From assembly GCA_025357635.1 (NCBI GenBank), contig JANXOV010000004.1, positions 111,032 to 175,031 of the forward strand: 64,000 nucleotides of DNA, read 5' to 3'. Shown in pieces: positions 48,043 through 60,639 of this stretch. This DNA comes from Pseudomonadota bacterium (GTDB lineage: Bacteria; Pseudomonadota; Gammaproteobacteria; Steroidobacterales; Steroidobacteraceae). The translations under genes and the position numbers were made by a program. How positions within the stretch are numbered: position 1 is the first letter of the stretch; every line of letters begins with the position of its first letter. Below the pieces are notes generated by a model. It saw only the letters and a list, made by a program, of their open reading frames with translations, searched no databases and was not told the DNA's origin.

Positions 48043-49080
48043 ATGGGAAAAGCGCTGCGCGCCAAGTCTCGCGAGTACTATGAGCAACCAATGCCCGCCG
48101 GCCGTCCCATCAAACCCTTAAGACTGTTCATCCAATGCCTCATCACGGCCACCGTACTGGGCTTCCTGCTTCGTATAGTTCCATTTGCGGACATCGCCGG
48201 GGCACTTAACAACGCCGATCCAAGATATGTGCTTCTTGCATTCGCGCTGCAATTGGTAACGCGTCTGCCGAACGCGATCCGGATAAAAATCATCGCAGAC
48301 GCTCTGGCACTTCGTTTGAGCATCAAGACGATTTTGACTACACAACTGTCGACAAGTTTTTACGGAATCCTGCTGCCGGGGGCAATCGCCGGTGGCGCCG
48401 CCAGTTGGATCAAGTACGTGCAGCGCGGAGTCGATGCGAGCCGGGCTCTGGCCTGCATCGTTGTCAATCGCGCTACGGAGATCCTCACCACCGTCAGCGT
48501 TGGCCTCTCGTTTTGGGTCATCGATCGGAAGCTGACAGGACTCCCCGACGGCCTGTTCCTTGCGTTGGCAACCGTTGCCTTGCTATCACTCTATGTGCTG
48601 ATTTTCGGGCGTGCGCACTACCTGGCGTCGCTGGTGGCGCGCGGCATGCGATTGGCATCTCTGAAAAACAATCTGCTGTATGGCAAGCTGTTCGCGTTCT
48701 CAAACGACCTTGCCCGTATGCGCGAACTGCGCCGCGGTTCGCTGGTAACGATGCTTGCCGCGTCGGTGGCGCAGGAACTTCTTGGGATAATGGCCATGTT
48801 CAGCTTCGCGCAGGCGTTGAACCTCGAGCTCAGTTTCTACGCGGTCGCGTGGATGAGAACCGCTGTGTACCTGGTTGTGTTGCTACCTTTGTCCGTATTG
48901 GGTCTGGGCGTGCGTGAAGTTACTCTGGTTTTTCTAACAGCGGCCTATGGAATCATCGCGCCGCGCGCGATCGCATGGTCGTTCCTGATATTCTCCGGCA
49001 CCCTGGTGGCCGCACTCGGAGGCGGGCTGGTCGAGGCACGCGCCTTGTGGTTCAAACAATCCCCCCCGCCTTCCCCGTAG
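48043..49080 (+). CDS. lysylphosphatidylglycerol synthase TM-domain (flippase-like/UPF0104) protein
   Basis: multi-TM; GILLPGAIAGGAASWIKYVQRGVDASRALACIVVNRATEI. Confidence 0.8.
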   Translation: MGKALRAKSREYYEQPMPAGRPIKPLRLFIQCLITATVLGFLLRIVPFADIAGALNNADPRYVLLAFALQLVTRLPNAIRIKIIADALALRLSIKTILTTQLSTSFYGILLPGAIAGGAASWIKYVQRGVDASRALACIVVNRATEILTTVSVGLSFWVIDRKLTGLPDGLFLALATVALLSLYVLIFGRAHYLASLVARGMRLASLKNNLLYGKLFAFSNDLARMRELRRGSLVTMLAASVAQELLGIMAMFSFAQALNLELSFYAVAWMRTAVYLVVLLPLSVLGLGVREVTLVFLTAAYGIIAPRAIAWSFLIFSGTLVAALGGGLVEARALWFKQSPPPSP

Positions 49081-49097
49081 CGGCATCACCGAGACTC

Positions 49098-50159
49098 ATG
49101 TCCCTACCGATCACCCTCTGCATCATCAACCACAATGGTGCCGGGAATCTGAACGGTACATTGCAAGCGGCCATAGACAGTTTGGGTGGCGTTTCGGAAT
49201 TCTTGTTGGTCGACAATGCCTCGACCGATGCGAGCCTGGAATTGGTGCGCAACCATTTTCCGCAGGTTCGGATTCTTGCGTTGAGCGACAATACGGGACC
49301 GGCCGGGGCACGCAATGCGGGCTATGGCGCTGCCCGATTCGATGTCATCCTGTTTCAGGATAACGACGTACGCTTGCAGCCCGAATGCGCCGCGACGCTT
49401 TACTCGCGGTTGCAGACCAAACCAAGAGCGCTGCTCGTCGCACCGCGGGTGTTATATGAACGCCACCCGGCGATGATTCAGTACGACAGCGCCGATTGTC
49501 ATTTTCTGGGTCTCATGGCTCCGCGAAATGCCGATCGGCTGTCGACCGAGATCGATTCGGCTTGTGTCACCACAACCTCGCTGGTGACCGCTTGTTTCCT
49601 CATTGATCGGAGGCGCTGGCTCGATTCCCAGTTGTTCGATGAAGACTTTATTTTCAATCTCGAAGATCACGACTTTGGCGTGCGTGCCAATCTTCGCGGC
49701 ATGGAAACCTGGGTCGAGCCGCGCGCGACCGTGCTGCATGGCGATGGTACCGTCGAATTGTCGTATCGGCCCGGCCGCACGGTCGCTGGACGGCGCATGT
49801 TCTACTTGATTCGCAATCGTTGGCTGATCATCGGCAAGTCCTATGCGTTGCGTACACTGCTGGTGTTGTCGCCTGTACTGCTGCTGTATGAAGTCTTCCA
49901 ATTGGCCGGATTGATCAGGAAAGGCTGGTTTGGCGTGTGGTGGAGCGCGTTTCGGTCAATTGTCGGTCAGCTTCCCGATCTGCGTCGCAAACGTGCCGCA
50001 GTGCAAGCCACGCGCAAGAAGCCGGATCGAGCGATTCTGCGCGGCGGCCCGCTGCCACTCACGGCCGCGTTCCGTCGTGGCAGGATCGCGCAGATGGCAA
50101 TCAACCTTTTTGGCGGCCTCGCAAGCGGCTACTGGAAGCTCATGCGCAAGTGCATATAG
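49098..50159 (+). CDS. glycosyltransferase family 2
   Basis: ITLCIINHNGAGNL, LLVDNASTDAS, NTGPAGARNAGY, FQDNDVRL. Confidence 0.87.
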   Translation: MSLPITLCIINHNGAGNLNGTLQAAIDSLGGVSEFLLVDNASTDASLELVRNHFPQVRILALSDNTGPAGARNAGYGAARFDVILFQDNDVRLQPECAATLYSRLQTKPRALLVAPRVLYERHPAMIQYDSADCHFLGLMAPRNADRLSTEIDSACVTTTSLVTACFLIDRRRWLDSQLFDEDFIFNLEDHDFGVRANLRGMETWVEPRATVLHGDGTVELSYRPGRTVAGRRMFYLIRNRWLIIGKSYALRTLLVLSPVLLLYEVFQLAGLIRKGWFGVWWSAFRSIVGQLPDLRRKRAAVQATRKKPDRAILRGGPLPLTAAFRRGRIAQMAINLFGGLASGYWKLMRKCI

Positions 50160-50188
50160 GTGCATCGAATGAAACCCGAGAGCAGTTA

Positions 50189-51370
50189 GTGCGTATCGCG
50201 ATGATTGCCGCCTGCCCGTTCCCGTGGCCGAGAGGCACACCGGTGCGCATTTATCGCATGGCCGAGGCGCTGGCGCGCCGAGGCCACGACGTGCAGATGG
50301 TGACCTATCACATCGGGGAGAGGACAGGTCCGCTGCCCTTTGCGGTACACCGGATCCGCAATGTACCCGGCTATACCAATAGTGAGCCAGGCCCGCACTT
50401 GCGCAAACTGTTGCAGCTCGATCCGCTTCTCGTCATGACCCTGCGCCGATTGCGAGGCTCGCAATCCATCGATCTTATCCACGCGCATCACTATGAGGGC
50501 TTGCTGACGGCGCTGGCCGCTACGGCGCCGGGGAGACGATTGCCCGTCATTTACGATGCCCACACATTGCTTTCGTCGGAGCTGCCTTATTATTCAATGG
50601 GTATGCCGCGCCGCGCGAAGGCGTGGATCGGTGGCTTCATTGACAGGCATCTGCCGCGGCGCGCGGATCACGTCATCGCCGTCACCCAAAGCATTCGCAG
50701 CACGCTCATCGCCGCGGGACGTGTCGATGAACGTCGCATCAGTGTGATACCCAACGGCGTCGAAACCGAACATTTCGCCGCACTTGATTCACCGCCAGCT
50801 CCGCTGCGGCAGGGCCGGCGGCTGGTATTCGCCGGCAACCTCGCCGCCTACCAAGGCGTGGATCTACTGCTGCAGACCTTTTCCATCGTACGCCGCCGGT
50901 TGAGTGATGTGCGGCTGATGATTCTGACCGACTCCGACTTCAAGGAATTCGTGCCGCTCGCCAAGTCACTGGGCATTGATGCAGCGATCGATGTACACAA
51001 CCCCGGTTACCTGAAACTTCCAGGCTACCTGCACAGCGCCGATGTCCTGTTGAACCCGCGTCCGGCATGCGACGGCATTCCGCAGAAACTTCTGAACTAC
51101 ATGGCCGCGGGTCGACCCATCGTTTCCTTTGCCGGCTCGGGCAAGATTCTCGAACATGAGCACACCGGCTTGTTGGCCGCCGAAGGCGACGTGCCGGCAT
51201 TCGCCGCTGCGGTGCTGCGCTTGTTTGCACAGCCGGAGTTTGCAGCGCGTCTGGGTGTCAACGCCCAGGCACTGGCTATGAAGGAGTACGGATGGGGTCA
51301 AGTCGCTGTCAAAGTGGAAGCCGTTTATGAAAGCGCGATGATCAACCACCGGCAGCCTGGCAAGCAATGA
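50189..51370 (+). CDS. glycosyltransferase family 4
   Basis: RVDERRISVIPNGVETEHF, GDVPAFAAAVLRLF; GTG start at 50189 or ATG at 50201. Confidence 0.86.
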   Translation: MRIAMIAACPFPWPRGTPVRIYRMAEALARRGHDVQMVTYHIGERTGPLPFAVHRIRNVPGYTNSEPGPHLRKLLQLDPLLVMTLRRLRGSQSIDLIHAHHYEGLLTALAATAPGRRLPVIYDAHTLLSSELPYYSMGMPRRAKAWIGGFIDRHLPRRADHVIAVTQSIRSTLIAAGRVDERRISVIPNGVETEHFAALDSPPAPLRQGRRLVFAGNLAAYQGVDLLLQTFSIVRRRLSDVRLMILTDSDFKEFVPLAKSLGIDAAIDVHNPGYLKLPGYLHSADVLLNPRPACDGIPQKLLNYMAAGRPIVSFAGSGKILEHEHTGLLAAEGDVPAFAAAVLRLFAQPEFAARLGVNAQALAMKEYGWGQVAVKVEAVYESAMINHRQPGKQ

Positions 51371-52923
51371 GCGTGCGGACACCCGTTCTGATGCTGGGCC
51401 TGGATGCCGCGGAACTTTCGCTCATCGAACGCTTCATCGCCCAGGGGAAGCTGCCGGCGCTGGCTCGGCTACTGCGAGAAGGATGCTTCGGACGCTTGCG
51501 CTCACCGGCGCTTTCGTTCGCAGGTGGCGTGTGGCCAAGTTTTTACGCAGGCCAGGACGTGCCGTGGCACGGCATATTCCACAACAAGCTGTGGCGGCCG
51601 AGCGCTATGCGCTGCGAAGTACCGACGGATCGATGGATCACCTCGCGCCCGTTCTGGGAACACCTGGGCGAGCAGGGCCATCGCGTCTGCATCGTCGACG
51701 TGCCGATGATCCTCGGCGAGCCGCACCCTGTTAACGGCCTATACCTTGGCGGCTGGGGTACGCACGATCTGATCTCGAGCGGCTCCTGGCCGTCGGGTTT
51801 ATGGAGCGAACTGCGCCGACGCTACGGTCGGCCGATCATGCCCAAAGAGCACTTCGGCCCGCAGACGGCCCGCAGCCTGGAAGAACTCGCGGCATCGCTG
51901 CTGCGTTCAACCGAGCAAATGCAGCGCATCGCGATGGACCTTTTGGGGCGCGAGCCCTGGGACTTCGCCTGCGTCGTATTCGGTGCAACCCACCGCGTCG
52001 GTCATTACCTTTGGGACTTGTCACAGTTGGATGGCGACGCGCTGTCTACCCGGCGCCGAGAGGCCCTGGAATCAGCGCTCCTCGGCATCTATCAAGCAAC
52101 TGACAGCGCCATCGCCCACATCCTGGATCAGGCCGGCGAGGATACGCTGGTGATGGCATTCGCCCTGCACGGAATGGGTCCGAATCCTGGCTGGAGCGAT
52201 CTCGTGCCCGAGATTCTCGAAGCGGTCGAGCATTCGAACACTGGACTGGATCCGAAGAAAGGTCTTTTGTACGCGCTCAGACGGCGGCTGCCGATTCAAT
52301 GGGTCCGTCCACTGATCGAGAGTCTGCCGATGTCGGTCACCGATCGGCTGGTGTCGATCTGGTCGGCCCGGATGTTCGATTGGACGGTGACGACGCAATT
52401 TCCCCTGCCGATGGATCATGCCGGCTACATACGCGTCAATCTTCAGGGCCGGGAGCGTGATGGGATCGTCTCGATGACTGATGCTTACCCGGAAGCATGT
52501 GCGGTGATCGAAAGAATATTCCTGGGCCTTCGCGACCGCGACACGGGTCGGTGCATCGCGCAGAAAGTGGTGCATGCATTTGCACAGGCACCGCCATCCG
52601 CTTCCTATCGCGATCTGATGCCGGACCTCATCGTACAGTGGCAGGAACCAGCGGCCACCGCGTCCCGTGAACTGTACTGCGACGCTGCACCATCGTTTCG
52701 CTTCACGGTTCCGCGCCGCCTGCCTTCCGGCCGCTCGGGCAATCATACCGGGCACGGGTGGTTCGTTGCCCGCGGTCCGGGCGTGGCGCGCGGTCAACGG
52801 CTGGATGGGTACGACATTCTGGATCTTGCGCCGACGGTGCTCGCCGTTCTTGGCGCCGACCGCCGGACTGAATTTCAGGGTCGTCCGATGGATCTGAGCG
52901 GCAGGCAAACCGATGATCATTGA
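51367..52923 (+). CDS. alkaline phosphatase superfamily / type I phosphodiesterase-like protein
   Basis: MLGLDAAELSLIERFIAQGKLPALARLLREG; MAFALHGMG; domain order typical of nucleotide pyrophosphatase-like proteins. Confidence 0.8.
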   Translation: MSVRTPVLMLGLDAAELSLIERFIAQGKLPALARLLREGCFGRLRSPALSFAGGVWPSFYAGQDVPWHGIFHNKLWRPSAMRCEVPTDRWITSRPFWEHLGEQGHRVCIVDVPMILGEPHPVNGLYLGGWGTHDLISSGSWPSGLWSELRRRYGRPIMPKEHFGPQTARSLEELAASLLRSTEQMQRIAMDLLGREPWDFACVVFGATHRVGHYLWDLSQLDGDALSTRRREALESALLGIYQATDSAIAHILDQAGEDTLVMAFALHGMGPNPGWSDLVPEILEAVEHSNTGLDPKKGLLYALRRRLPIQWVRPLIESLPMSVTDRLVSIWSARMFDWTVTTQFPLPMDHAGYIRVNLQGRERDGIVSMTDAYPEACAVIERIFLGLRDRDTGRCIAQKVVHAFAQAPPSASYRDLMPDLIVQWQEPAATASRELYCDAAPSFRFTVPRRLPSGRSGNHTGHGWFVARGPGVARGQRLDGYDILDLAPTVLAVLGADRRTEFQGRPMDLSGRQTDDH

Positions 52924-54526
52924 TGCGCACGATGCGTCCGTGCACGGCCGCCTCGATTGTGACGTTTGCATCGTGGGCGGAGGTGCGGCAGGAATCAGCC
53001 TCGCAGCGGAACTTGCCGATTCGGGCTTGCTGATATGCATGCTGGAGTCCGGAGGCCTGGGCTACGAGACTGCGACGCAGGACTTGCTCAGTGGAGAGGC
53101 GCCCGGCAGCGATTATCTCGAGTTGAGCGAAACGCGGCTCGCGGCATTGGGCGGCTCAACCGGTCTGTGGGCCGGCTGGTGTCGCCCATTGGACGCCATT
53201 GATTTTGAGGCGCGCAACTGGGTTCCCAACAGCGGGTGGCCTTTCACCCTGCGCGATCTGCTGCCGTATTACCAGCGCGCGCAGCAATTGTGCGGACTGG
53301 GGCCATTGGACTATGACGGCGGCGCCTGGGCACGGCGCACCGGTTCCCTGCCGCTGCCATTGCCGCCCGAGCAGTTCTCAACGACGATTTTTCAGATTAG
53401 TCCCATCAGTTTCGGCACCCATTTCCGCGAACTATTGGATCGAACAGCGAATATCCGGACCGTTTTGCATGCCACGGTCTTGCGCTTGTACACCGCTTCG
53501 ACCGCGGATCGCATCGAGCGGGCCCGCGTCGCGACTTTGAACAACAAACAATTTGAGGTCACGGCCCGGATCTTCGTGCTCGCCGCCGGTGGAATTGAGA
53601 ATCCCCGTCTGTTGCTCCTGTCGGGTGACTCCCCCGAGCTCAGCATCGGCAATCGCGGCGGACTGGTGGGCCGATATTTCATGGAGCATGGCTTCATCAA
53701 CGCCGGGAGTTACGTGAGCAGCGACGTCGCGCAATCGATGGCCTTTCACTTTCCAACTCACACTCAATCGAATGGCCATGACGTGGTTGTACGCGGTGGA
53801 TATTCGGTCAGCCCGGCGATCGCGCGCAGTCAGCGGCTGCTGAACAGCGCGATATTCTTCCATTCCGCCTTTGAGTCCCATGATGTTTTCGACAGCCCTG
53901 CAATCAGGGCGCTGCTGGAGATCCGCGACAAACTCCGCGGGCGTGCGATGCCCGGCGGGTATTTGAAGCGCGCCATTCCGGTGCTGCGTAGTCCCGCCAA
54001 GCTTGCGATCGCCCTTCACCGCCGCGCGTTCATGCGCGAGCGACAGCAAAGACGCTGGCGGACACGCGCGCTGTTCGAATGCGCCCCGCACCGCGACAAC
54101 CAGGTCAGCCTCGGCTCCGAGCGCGATAGTTTGAATCGGCCGCGGGCTCACGTGCGGTGGAAGTTAAACGAGCTGGATCTGTGCAGCGTTCGGCAGACTC
54201 ACGCGCTGCTGGATACGGCGCTACGCAGCACCGGTCTTGGGCAATTCGATTGCCGATTCGACACCGATCTGTCGTGGCAACAAGCGACCGAGGCGGCCAA
54301 GCACCATCTTGGCACCACACGGATGCATTGCGACCCAGCGTACGGTGTCGTCAATGAGCATTGCAAAGTCCATGGCGTACCCAATCTCTACATCGCCGGC
54401 GGCTCAGTGTTTCCGACCGGCGGATTCGCCAATCCCACCCTGACGATAGTCGCGCTCGCGGCACGTTTGGCTGCACACATCAGAAGCGAACTGGATCAGG
54501 AGTCACGGGTCAGCTCAGTAACGTGA
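52913..54526 (+). CDS. GMC family oxidoreductase
   Basis: CDVCIVGGGAAGISLAAEL; LAALGGSTGLWAGWCRPLD; HHLGTTRMHCDP; GGSVFPTGGFANPTLTIVALAARLA. Confidence 0.9.
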   Translation: MIIDAHDASVHGRLDCDVCIVGGGAAGISLAAELADSGLLICMLESGGLGYETATQDLLSGEAPGSDYLELSETRLAALGGSTGLWAGWCRPLDAIDFEARNWVPNSGWPFTLRDLLPYYQRAQQLCGLGPLDYDGGAWARRTGSLPLPLPPEQFSTTIFQISPISFGTHFRELLDRTANIRTVLHATVLRLYTASTADRIERARVATLNNKQFEVTARIFVLAAGGIENPRLLLLSGDSPELSIGNRGGLVGRYFMEHGFINAGSYVSSDVAQSMAFHFPTHTQSNGHDVVVRGGYSVSPAIARSQRLLNSAIFFHSAFESHDVFDSPAIRALLEIRDKLRGRAMPGGYLKRAIPVLRSPAKLAIALHRRAFMRERQQRRWRTRALFECAPHRDNQVSLGSERDSLNRPRAHVRWKLNELDLCSVRQTHALLDTALRSTGLGQFDCRFDTDLSWQQATEAAKHHLGTTRMHCDPAYGVVNEHCKVHGVPNLYIAGGSVFPTGGFANPTLTIVALAARLAAHIRSELDQESRVSSVT

Positions 54527-54607
54527 TTCGCACTCTCGCGAACGCTCTTCAGTGGTCATTCTGAACCATTGCAGTCACAATGAGCGCGTCTTTGATGAGG
54601 AAACCCC

Positions 54608-55768
54608 ATGCATTGGCGTACCAATCTCATTCATTCCGAGACGGCTGCCCCTTCTGGCTTCAAGTCACTGTGCACTCCGGTGTATCGGGGTTCAACGGTG
54701 CTGTTTTCGACTCAAGCAGAAGTCACCGACGATTGGCGGCAATCGCAATTCGGCTACACCTACGGACTTTACGGGACACCGACCGTTCTGGAGCTGGGTC
54801 TGCGCATCAAAGAACTGGAAGGCGCGCATCACACCTTCATTGTTCCAGGTGGACAAGCAGCGATCGCGTTGGTGTACCTCGCATTCTGCAAGATGGGCAG
54901 CCATGCGCTCATCCCCACCACAGCCTATGGACCAAACCGAGAGATGGCCGATGGCCTGTTGGCGGGTCTTGGGATCGAGGTGGAGCCCTACGACCCGATG
55001 ATCGGAAAACAGATCAGCCAACTCATCCGGCCGACTACGTCATTGATATGGACCGAAAGCCCAGGGTCCATCACCATGGAAGTCCAGGATGTACCCGCCA
55101 TTGTCGCCTCTGCACGTGAGCATGACATCCCGGTGGCGCTGGATAACACCTATTCGGCCGGAGTGCTTTTTGATGCCTTCGCGCACGGCGTCGAAGTCAG
55201 CATTCAAGCGCTGACCAAATTCGTCGGCGGCCACAGCGATCTGCTGTTGGGATCCGTTTCCGTAGCCAATGCGCGCCGCTACGAACAGGTGGGAATGACA
55301 GCCAGTTACCTTGGTATGGCGGTTTCACCGGATGACTGCAGTCTGGCTCTCAGGGGACTTCAGACTCTGGGCGTGCGATTGGCGCAATTGGAAGCCTCCG
55401 CGTTGCAAATCGCCAATTGGCTGGCGACGCAGCCGGGAATCGAACGCGTATTGCATCCCGCGCTCCCCACATGTCCTGGTCACCAGTTCTGGGCCAGGGA
55501 TTTCGAGGGATCCTCCAGTGTGTTCTCCATCGTGTTCGACCGCTCGATATCCCCCGACCGGGTCGTGGCATTTGTGGACTCGCTTCGCCTTTTCAAGATC
55601 GGAATGAGCTGGGGCGGTGTCACAAGCCTCGCGATCCTCTATCCCAGGTTGCAGCGACCTGACACCGACTACGCTGGCAGGCTCGTGCGACTGAATGTGG
55701 GGCTGGAAGATCCGAACGACCTCATCGCTGACTTGCACCGCGCACTGTCGGCTTCATTCACCCCTTGA
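54608..55768 (+). CDS. Cys/Met metabolism PLP-dependent enzyme (cystathionine beta-lyase-like)
   Basis: RGSTVLF, YGTPTVLELG, DNTYSAGVLFDAFAHGVEVSIQALTKFVGGHSDLLLGSV. Confidence 0.88.
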   Translation: MHWRTNLIHSETAAPSGFKSLCTPVYRGSTVLFSTQAEVTDDWRQSQFGYTYGLYGTPTVLELGLRIKELEGAHHTFIVPGGQAAIALVYLAFCKMGSHALIPTTAYGPNREMADGLLAGLGIEVEPYDPMIGKQISQLIRPTTSLIWTESPGSITMEVQDVPAIVASAREHDIPVALDNTYSAGVLFDAFAHGVEVSIQALTKFVGGHSDLLLGSVSVANARRYEQVGMTASYLGMAVSPDDCSLALRGLQTLGVRLAQLEASALQIANWLATQPGIERVLHPALPTCPGHQFWARDFEGSSSVFSIVFDRSISPDRVVAFVDSLRLFKIGMSWGGVTSLAILYPRLQRPDTDYAGRLVRLNVGLEDPNDLIADLHRALSASFTP

Positions 55769-55775
55769 GTTTCTC

Positions 55776-56504
55776 ATGACACGACGAAACAGTGTGCACC
55801 TGACCACGGCGATCGTGCTGAGCTTGTTGGTATTGGTCCGGCCGTCTATCGCTGCGGCGCGCGATGCGCCGGTCTACAGTCACGCGCCCGCCAGCCGCGA
55901 CGGCATCGGCAAATTCTACGCAGGACGCGAAATCGCCCACGTCATGGGCTTCGCGGGCGCCCAATGGCTCGACCGGTCCGAACGAGAGGTTGAAGAACGC
56001 CCGGATTGGCTGATCGAAGAACTGGCCATCACACCGGCGCTGGTGGTTGCGGATATCGGCGCCGGTTCAGGTTATATGACGCGCCGGATCGCCCCCTTGC
56101 TGACGCGAGGCAATCTCTATGCGGTGGACGTCCAGCCTGAAATGGTGGAGATGCTAAAGGATCTCGCCAGCCAGCCGGGCATGCGCAGCGTGATTCCCAC
56201 CTTGGCCACGGCCACCGACGTCAGGCTGCCTGAAGGGTCTTGCGATCTCGCGTTCATGGTGGACGTCTACCACGAACTGAAATTCCCGCGCGAAGTCATG
56301 CTCAGTATCATCAAGGCGCTCAAACCGGGGGGCCGCATGGTGTTCGTCGAGTATCGGGCAGAGGATCCGGCGGTTCCGATCAAACCCCTGCACAAGATGT
56401 CGGTGGCGCAAGTTCGCAAAGAGATGCAGTCACTCCCGCTTGTCTGGGAGAAAACCTCCGAGCGCCTGCCATTGCAACACGTTGTTGTCTTTCGCAAGCG
56501 CTAG
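55776..56504 (+). CDS. SAM-dependent methyltransferase with N-terminal signal sequence
   Basis: VVADIGAGSGYMTRRIAPLL, GNLYAVDVQPEMV, LKPGGRMVFVEYR; hydrophobic leader TTAIVLSLLVLVRPSIAAARDA. Confidence 0.87.
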   Translation: MTRRNSVHLTTAIVLSLLVLVRPSIAAARDAPVYSHAPASRDGIGKFYAGREIAHVMGFAGAQWLDRSEREVEERPDWLIEELAITPALVVADIGAGSGYMTRRIAPLLTRGNLYAVDVQPEMVEMLKDLASQPGMRSVIPTLATATDVRLPEGSCDLAFMVDVYHELKFPREVMLSIIKALKPGGRMVFVEYRAEDPAVPIKPLHKMSVAQVRKEMQSLPLVWEKTSERLPLQHVVVFRKR

Positions 56505-58550: not shown

Positions 58551-58997
58551 TCAGACAGGCCACGGCCGGGTGAACGAAAATCCGCGGAGAAACGGTCTAA
58601 TATTTTTGAAATCCGTATCATCGGTAACCAGCGTCATGCCGCTTTCCCGACACGATGCCGCGATCAAGATATCGTTGACGAGGGAGCGGGGCCGCTCAGT
58701 GAAGCGAACACCGTCCTGCCGGGACAGCGCAGCCAGAATGCGTCCACACTCCCTGAATGCAAGCACGGATGGACCGACCACGCGCCCGCGCCGTTCGAAC
58801 GCCTGAAAGATCCCTTTGTCCACTACACGCGCCGCCCGATCCGTGACCGCACCAGCCCGCAATTCCTGCATCACCACCGAGCTCATGTAGGTGACCGGGG
58901 CGTTGCGCTCGAGGAATGCATCCAAGGCCCTTGCCTGGTCAGGATCACGAATCGCGCTGATGTAGATATTGGAGTCGAGGATAACTTTGCGAGTCAT
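58551..58997 (-). CDS. PIN-domain toxin (VapC-like)
   Basis: VILDSNIYISAI, VVMQELRAGA, NDILIAASCRESGMTLVTDDTDF. Confidence 0.87.
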   Translation of the reverse strand: MTRKVILDSNIYISAIRDPDQARALDAFLERNAPVTYMSSVVMQELRAGAVTDRAARVVDKGIFQAFERRGRVVGPSVLAFRECGRILAALSRQDGVRFTERPRSLVNDILIAASCRESGMTLVTDDTDFKNIRPFLRGFSFTRPWPV

Positions 58998-60043: not shown

Positions 60044-60277
60044 GTGGAAGACCTCATATCCTTCTCTCTTCGTATCCCCAAGTCGCTCGCCAGCAGTATC
60101 GAGGTCACCGCACGCCGGCTGGGCGTATCCAAGTCCGAGTACGCACGTCGTGCGATGGAAGCCTTCGAGCAACGTGTCATGCATGACCGCATCGCTGAGC
60201 TGTCGCATCAACTTGCGGCGCATAGTGAAGCGGCCTCGCGAACCATGGACGACAGCACGGCGGATGCGCTGGAATGA
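60044..60277 (+). CDS. ribbon-helix-helix antitoxin (MazE-like partner)
   Basis: SFSLRIPKSLASSIEVTARRLGVSKSEYARRAMEAF; GTG start; overlaps toxin start. Confidence 0.75.
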   Translation: MEDLISFSLRIPKSLASSIEVTARRLGVSKSEYARRAMEAFEQRVMHDRIAELSHQLAAHSEAASRTMDDSTADALE

Positions 60278-60639
60278 CGCAGGCCGTTCGCAGAGGTGAA
60301 ATTTGGGCGGTGAATTTCGAACCGCAAACTCACCGTCAGGAACCAGGGAAAAAACAACGGCCTGCACTGGTGATCCAGACCGACGCCCTCAACGGCGCCG
60401 CCCATCCGGCGACCATCGTGATTCCCGGCACCAGCCAACTCGACGCGCTTCCGCCCGGAGACCTGTTCCCGTTGCGAGTCCGAATCCAACGAACGGCTGA
60501 TCTCAAATTCGACACCGACCTCCTGATCGATCAGGTCCGAGCCATTTCCAACGCCCGTTTCTTGTACCGATACGGCGCGGTTCCGCAGAACATCCTCAAG
60601 CGTGCCGAAGAAGCCCTGCGCCTGCTGACCTCCCGCTGA
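60274..60639 (+). CDS. MazF/PemK-family toxin
   Basis: RRGEIWAVNFEPQ, KKQRPALVIQTDALN, IVIPGTSQ, LLIDQVRAISNARF. Confidence 0.88.
   Translation: MTQAVRRGEIWAVNFEPQTHRQEPGKKQRPALVIQTDALNGAAHPATIVIPGTSQLDALPPGDLFPLRVRIQRTADLKFDTDLLIDQVRAISNARFLYRYGAVPQNILKRAEEALRLLTSR

Follow-up and report, generated by a model that had tools for sequence, protein, structure and literature searches.

Gene content and layout of the cluster

Analysis of a 64,000-nucleotide stretch of contig JANXOV010000004.1 (hereafter the window), taken from the 4.29 Mb draft genome of a member of the Steroidobacteraceae (GCA_025357635.1) and ending where the contig ends, revealed a gene cluster in which two glycosyltransferase (GT) genes are followed by a gene for a protein of the alkaline phosphatase (AP) superfamily, PF01663, with an altered active site. 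The open reading frame (ORF) list and the Pfam and NCBIfam profile matches confirmed that seven ORFs lie on one strand and belong to the families named in a preliminary description of this DNA (Table 1). The two overlaps reported there were also found, the GT4 stop and the PF01663 start sharing ATGA at 51367-51370 and the PF01663 stop overlapping the GMC start at 52913-52923. The tight unit, however, comprised not the seven genes that had been grouped together but five (PF03706, GT2, GT4, PF01663 and GMC), at 48043-54526.

Inside this run, besides the two overlaps, neighbouring genes lie 17 bp or about 29 bp apart, and a gap of about 80 bp lies between the run and metC. With GT2 left out of the count, the other four genes of the run had a G+C content at third codon positions (GC3) of 0.68-0.71, compared with 0.82 in the upstream hydrolase gene, which is consistent with acquisition of the run. 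The short gaps, the overlaps and the common low GC3 together suggest more than a chance association, and the run looks like one operon; scans for promoters and terminators were at chance level and uninformative on its ends. The starts of the GT2 and methyltransferase genes were corrected, the former to ATG 49098 and the latter from 55695 to ATG 55776, which follows the metC stop and opens a hydrophobic, signal-like leader. No export, polymerase or initiating-transferase gene was identified among the cluster genes by profile matches, and the PF03706 protein is termed flippase-like by its family name only.

Table 1. Genes of the cluster and active-site residues of the PF01663 and GMC proteins (window coordinates)
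Feature	Position	Strand	Remarks
Flippase-like polytopic membrane protein, LPG_synthase_TM	48043..49080	+	PF03706 E=1.5e-24, TIGR00374; several hydrophobic segments
GT2 glycosyltransferase, rhamnosyltransferase-like (below cut-off)	49098..50159	+	PF00535 E=9.7e-19
GT4 glycosyltransferase	50189..51370	+	PF13439 E=2.8e-28; start GTG 50189 or ATG 50201
H-type PF01663 (AP superfamily) protein	51367..52923	+	PF01663 E=2e-17; altered active site
D13	51403..51405	+	retained; corresponds to Asp29, a metal-2 ligand in phosphonoacetate hydrolase
A52	51520..51522	+	aligned with Thr68, the catalytic nucleophile, which is lost here
D111	51697..51699	+	characteristic of H-type proteins (25/25); 9/10 canonical relatives have Asn
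H209-x3-H213	51991..52005	+	metal-1 ligands; H209 in place of Asp211
L267-H268	52165..52170	+	aligned with Asp250-His251 of the metal-2 site, the Asp being lost
H460	52744..52746	+	third metal-1 ligand; kept in 25/25
GMC oxidoreductase	52913..54526	+	GMC_oxred_C PF05199 E=2.4e-23; pyranose-oxidase/glucose-dehydrogenase-like
GMC catalytic H464	54302-54304	+	intact; His in 32/32 relatives
GMC catalytic N507	54431-54433	+	intact; Asn in 21/32 relatives
Cystathionine beta-lyase (MetC)	54608..55768	+	Cys_Met_Meta_PP PF01053 E=1.5e-91; probably outside the five-gene module
Class I S-adenosylmethionine methyltransferase	55776..56504	+	PF08241 E=2.6e-15; signal-peptide-like N-terminus; probably outside the five-gene module

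Active site of the PF01663 protein

The PF01663 protein scored 64.3 bits against a family cut-off of 23, in agreement with homology to the AP-superfamily core, and a profile built from 25 relatives matched phosphonoacetate hydrolase (3szy, 7e-9) and Xanthomonas NPP (2gso, 1.7e-7). In phosphonoacetate hydrolase, metal alpha is bound via Asp29, Thr68, Asp250 and His251 and metal beta via Asp211, His215 and His377 (PMC7916636), and PorX carries the same two metal sites (PMC11320123). Positions A52 and L267/H268 were placed via hidden Markov model alignments, and H209/H213 and H460 via alignment with canonical relatives. The nucleophile position, Thr or Ser in 10/10 canonical relatives, is occupied by A52; the metal-2 residues Asp, Thr, Asp and His are represented by D13, A52, L267 and H268, two of the four being lost; and the metal-1 residues Asp, His and His are represented by H209, H213 and H460, the Asp having been replaced by His. 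A single-sequence search aligned 'SFAG' of the window protein with 'SFAN' of chain 3t02, where chain 3szy reads 'SFTN'.

The window protein fell within a single clade (support 100/100), here termed H-type, of 25 proteins from 21 loci in Gammaproteobacteria, Nitrospirota and Cyanobacteriota, with members in Nostoc and Planktothrix; its nearest relatives in the tree were three tandem copies in a Nitrospirota metagenome-assembled genome (98/94). At the H209 position, 25/25 H-type proteins have His where 10/10 canonical relatives have Asp; R356 is present in 25/25 compared with 1/10, and R456 in 23/25 compared with 0/10. At least ten different residues occupy the nucleophile position in the H-type set, Thr being lost in most, and the metal-2 Asp (SDHG) survives in 3 of the 25 proteins. 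These frequencies describe this sample only, since there were few canonical proteins (10) and since the H-type proteins were collected for their resemblance to the window protein and classified on these same residues; the single clade is independent support. The conservation of HxxxH + H and of the clade-specific D111, R356 and R456 indicates that the H-type protein is not decayed, and judged from these residues H-type is a distinct, re-tooled or non-hydrolytic family and not a damaged gene. A PF01663 protein outside the clade (L141:2188-3696) retains the Thr but has Gln for the first Asp and Ala for the metal-1 Asp, and its degenerate site suggests an independent loss.

Removal or transfer of phosphate groups, the activity first ascribed to the window protein, is not supported, given the loss of the nucleophile and of one metal site and the different conserved site of the clade. 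It is unlikely that the H-type protein has kept phosphodiesterase or phosphotransferase activity, in which water at a one-metal His3 site would take the place of Thr, for example to remove a phospho-substituent or to cleave a polyprenyl-diphosphate-sugar. Such an activity would accord with the AP-superfamily fold given by profile homology, with the metal-binding residues still found at all three metal-1 positions and with the assumption that metal 1 of NPP3 activates the second-step water (PMC6052110), but the Thr-to-Ala change alone served to make inactive NPP3 (PMC6052110), and the metal-2 Asp is also gone in 22/25 H-type proteins.

In PorX T271V, metal 2 is lost and metal 1 kept (PMC11320123); the fold is thus stable with a single metal, and this variant offers a laboratory parallel to the H-type site. 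A speculative and rather improbable extension is that the H-type subfamily represents a new AP-superfamily enzyme class, whose single-metal His3 site would act not on phosphate esters but on keto-sugars supplied by partner GMC, Gfo/Idh/MocA or FAD enzymes, for example by elimination, isomerisation or glycoside cleavage. A possible reading, if not a probable one, is that of a pure pseudoenzyme that supports the neighbouring GT structurally or regulates it. Loss of the nucleophile and of metal 2 and the existence of GT4/H-type gene pairs around which little is conserved (L137, L138 and L143) are in its favour, but His3 and several Arg and Asp residues are kept in 23-25 of the 25 proteins across three phyla, which exceeds expectation for a mere scaffold.

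Related loci and gene neighbourhoods

Relatives of the PF01663 protein were found in 3/59 close relatives, 17/369 genomes of the class (E<=1e-3), 13/396 of the order (E<=1e-15) and, by profile search, 6/398 of the phylum (E<=1e-20), counts that are rough in that they include the source genome and some canonical enzymes and that only the best few candidates were scored. No relatives were detected in the viral contigs searched, and nothing relevant was found in the available literature that was searched for loci of this kind, for pseudoenzymes of the AP superfamily and for GMC enzymes in polysaccharide loci.

A GT gene was directly adjacent in 12 of the 21 H-type loci and no more than a few genes away in 19 (all but L090 and L140), while a sugar-redox or flavin adenine dinucleotide (FAD) enzyme was adjacent in seven, namely GMC in the window, L045 and L046, Gfo/Idh/MocA in L041, L130 and L131, and an NadB-like protein in L090; the counting was done by hand on simply picked ORFs with no matched background, and does not demonstrate enrichment over ordinary glycan loci. 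Some H-type loci are plain exopolysaccharide (EPS) loci with a polyprenyl glycosylphosphotransferase (L089, L133-L136) or XrtA-type genes (L042, L135). In a Nitrospirota metagenome-assembled genome, Gfo/Idh/MocA oxidoreductase genes and a GT4 gene border three tandem H-type genes (L041:6840-11539). On a Planktothrix plasmid (L090:2547-8869), genes for a phytanoyl-CoA dioxygenase-type protein, an H-type protein, an 'L-aspartate oxidase' flavoprotein and asparagine synthase have overlapping or nearly overlapping ends, and this cluster is possibly a natural-product locus.

Comparison of the loci did not bear out the idea of a co-conserved pathway; in the neighbourhood check no related locus repeated the set, but pairs and triples recurred. 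Locus L141, from genome G605 of the same order, carries GT4, PF01663, aldo/keto reductase, PF03706 and GT4 genes and thus shares with the window PF01663, PF03706 and a GT4 of 40% identity; it differs in having the aldo/keto reductase in place of GMC, no GT2 and a non-H-type PF01663 protein. Loci L130 and L131 (genomes G589 and G634), which are sisters in arrangement, resemble the window in having GMC, GTs and two H-type proteins each, and the GT2 of L131, beside an H-type gene, is 40.5% identical to that of the window; both loci are much larger, however, with Wzx, AlgX/SGNH, GH1, Gfo/Idh/MocA and asparagine synthase or carbamoyltransferase genes. Beside an H-type gene in each lies a gene for a small membrane-like protein without Pfam match (L131:4881-5345 and L130:10258-10662). 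The PF01663 gene adjoins the GMC gene in L045 and L046. Orthologues of the window GT4 (47-48% identity) occur in three members of the family (G022, G602 and G004), in what sequence reading indicates to be a different glycan locus. Glycan loci thus exchange such parts, and of the genomes read only this one has the exact set, the distribution being modular and patchy like that of EPS and glycolipid loci.

The preliminary description also counted the pyridoxal phosphate (PLP) lyase and the methyltransferase as pathway members, a claim that was not supported. That all seven genes form one pathway with these two as tailoring enzymes is very unlikely; they share one strand with gaps below 100 bp and a GC3 that stays similar through 57 kb, but the PLP gene is an ordinary metC exceeding the cystathionine beta-lyase equivalog cut-offs (NF005456, 549.5 vs 500 bits; TIGR01324, 390.7 vs 365.9), its orthologue of 70% identity in family member G006 has none of the cluster's genes nearby, the methyltransferase looks exported, and neither gene was found in loci related to the five-gene core. 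Both are probably neighbours and not members.

Downstream of the cluster, a PIN-domain toxin gene (58551-58997, minus strand) and a PemK/MazF-type toxin gene (60274-60639, plus strand) are consistent with a mobile region. A comparison from the flanks gave no readable empty site, the COCE and DUF808 relatives sitting in other contexts. The five genes might be regarded as unrelated cargo of a lower-GC island beside toxin-antitoxin genes, with no common function, given the lower GC3, the toxin-antitoxin-type genes and flanks without synteny in relatives. We consider this improbable in view of the overlaps within the run and of the recurrent pairings GT4/PF01663/PF03706 (L141) and PF01663/GMC (L045, L046, L130 and L131).

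Proposed role and comparison with known systems

With moderate confidence we propose that the five genes constitute an accessory, probably horizontally acquired module for glycan or glycolipid assembly at the cytoplasmic face, in which the H-type protein is a partner of the GT and redox enzymes and not a canonical phosphodiesterase. The glycoconjugate or glycolipid role suggested earlier is thus retained for the five-gene core, relatives of whose parts occur in EPS or lipopolysaccharide-like loci, and not for the PLP lyase and methyltransferase. GT2 and GT4 would add to a short glycan that is probably lipid-linked, the GMC flavoenzyme would oxidise a sugar hydroxyl to give a keto-sugar, and the PF03706 protein would move the product across the membrane or help to do so. 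The H-type protein, with its His3 site instead of the dizinc/Thr site, would most likely be a partner of the GT and redox enzymes, as either substrate-binding scaffold or single-metal non-phosphatase enzyme. No signal peptide or transmembrane segment was found in the window PF01663 or GMC protein, and both are therefore expected to work in the cytoplasm, ahead of export. The GMC protein, which resembles glucose dehydrogenase and pyranose oxidase and keeps the FAD-binding motif GGGAAG and the catalytic His-Asn, is most naturally read as oxidising a sugar hydroxyl. Elsewhere in the genome, a separate EPS locus (L190:6072-13245, contig C144) has its own GMC oxidoreductase together with a Wza-type export gene, chain-length/kinase-like genes and an MBOAT gene.

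Several observations weigh against this proposal. No copy of the whole seven- or five-gene set was found in the loci read from relatives, class, order or phylum, and given the lack of a second five-gene copy the operon could consist of island genes brought together by chance. The resemblance of the GMC protein to pyranose oxidase is distant and below cut-off, and GMC relatives mostly have no H-type gene next door; a GMC-led search gave 20 genome loci and several annotated plasmid regions with mostly unrelated neighbourhoods. Members of PF03706 are diverse, flipping being assumed from the family, and the AlphaFold model of the PF01663 protein from a four-sequence input (predicted local distance difference test score 46) was too poor to judge the His3 site.

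The accessory glycan module is itself ordinary-looking, and its notable part is a conserved, uncharacterised and mis-annotated AP-superfamily subfamily. Public records label such genes 'alkaline phosphatase family protein', a name taken to imply phosphate chemistry; since the catalytic centre is replaced in a conserved way, a phosphodiesterase or phosphatase annotation is probably wrong for the H-type clade, found in envelope-glycan loci of three phyla. An active His3 site would represent new chemistry on an old fold; with an inactive one, H-type would be a conserved pseudoenzyme partner of glycosyltransferases.

Compared with XrtA/PEP-CTERM and Wzx/Wzy-type EPS loci, some of which contain H-type relatives (L042, L089, L133-L136), the window locus has GTs in common but lacks Wza, Wzc, Wzx/Wzy and an initiating transferase in the cluster, the Wza genes of the genome being on other contigs. 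The window GMC shares the FAD motif, the catalytic His-Asn and the C-terminal domain with pyranose oxidase and bacterial GMC glucose dehydrogenase, but its 68.7 bits lie far under the NCBIfam cut-off of 544.9. With the type I phosphodiesterase/nucleotide pyrophosphatase family (PF01663; PhnA, NPP) the H-type proteins share the fold family at profile level, the first Asp and the positions of the metal-1 His pair, while they differ in the loss of the Thr nucleophile and the metal-2 Asp, in His at the metal-1 Asp and in the clade-specific D111, R356 and R456.

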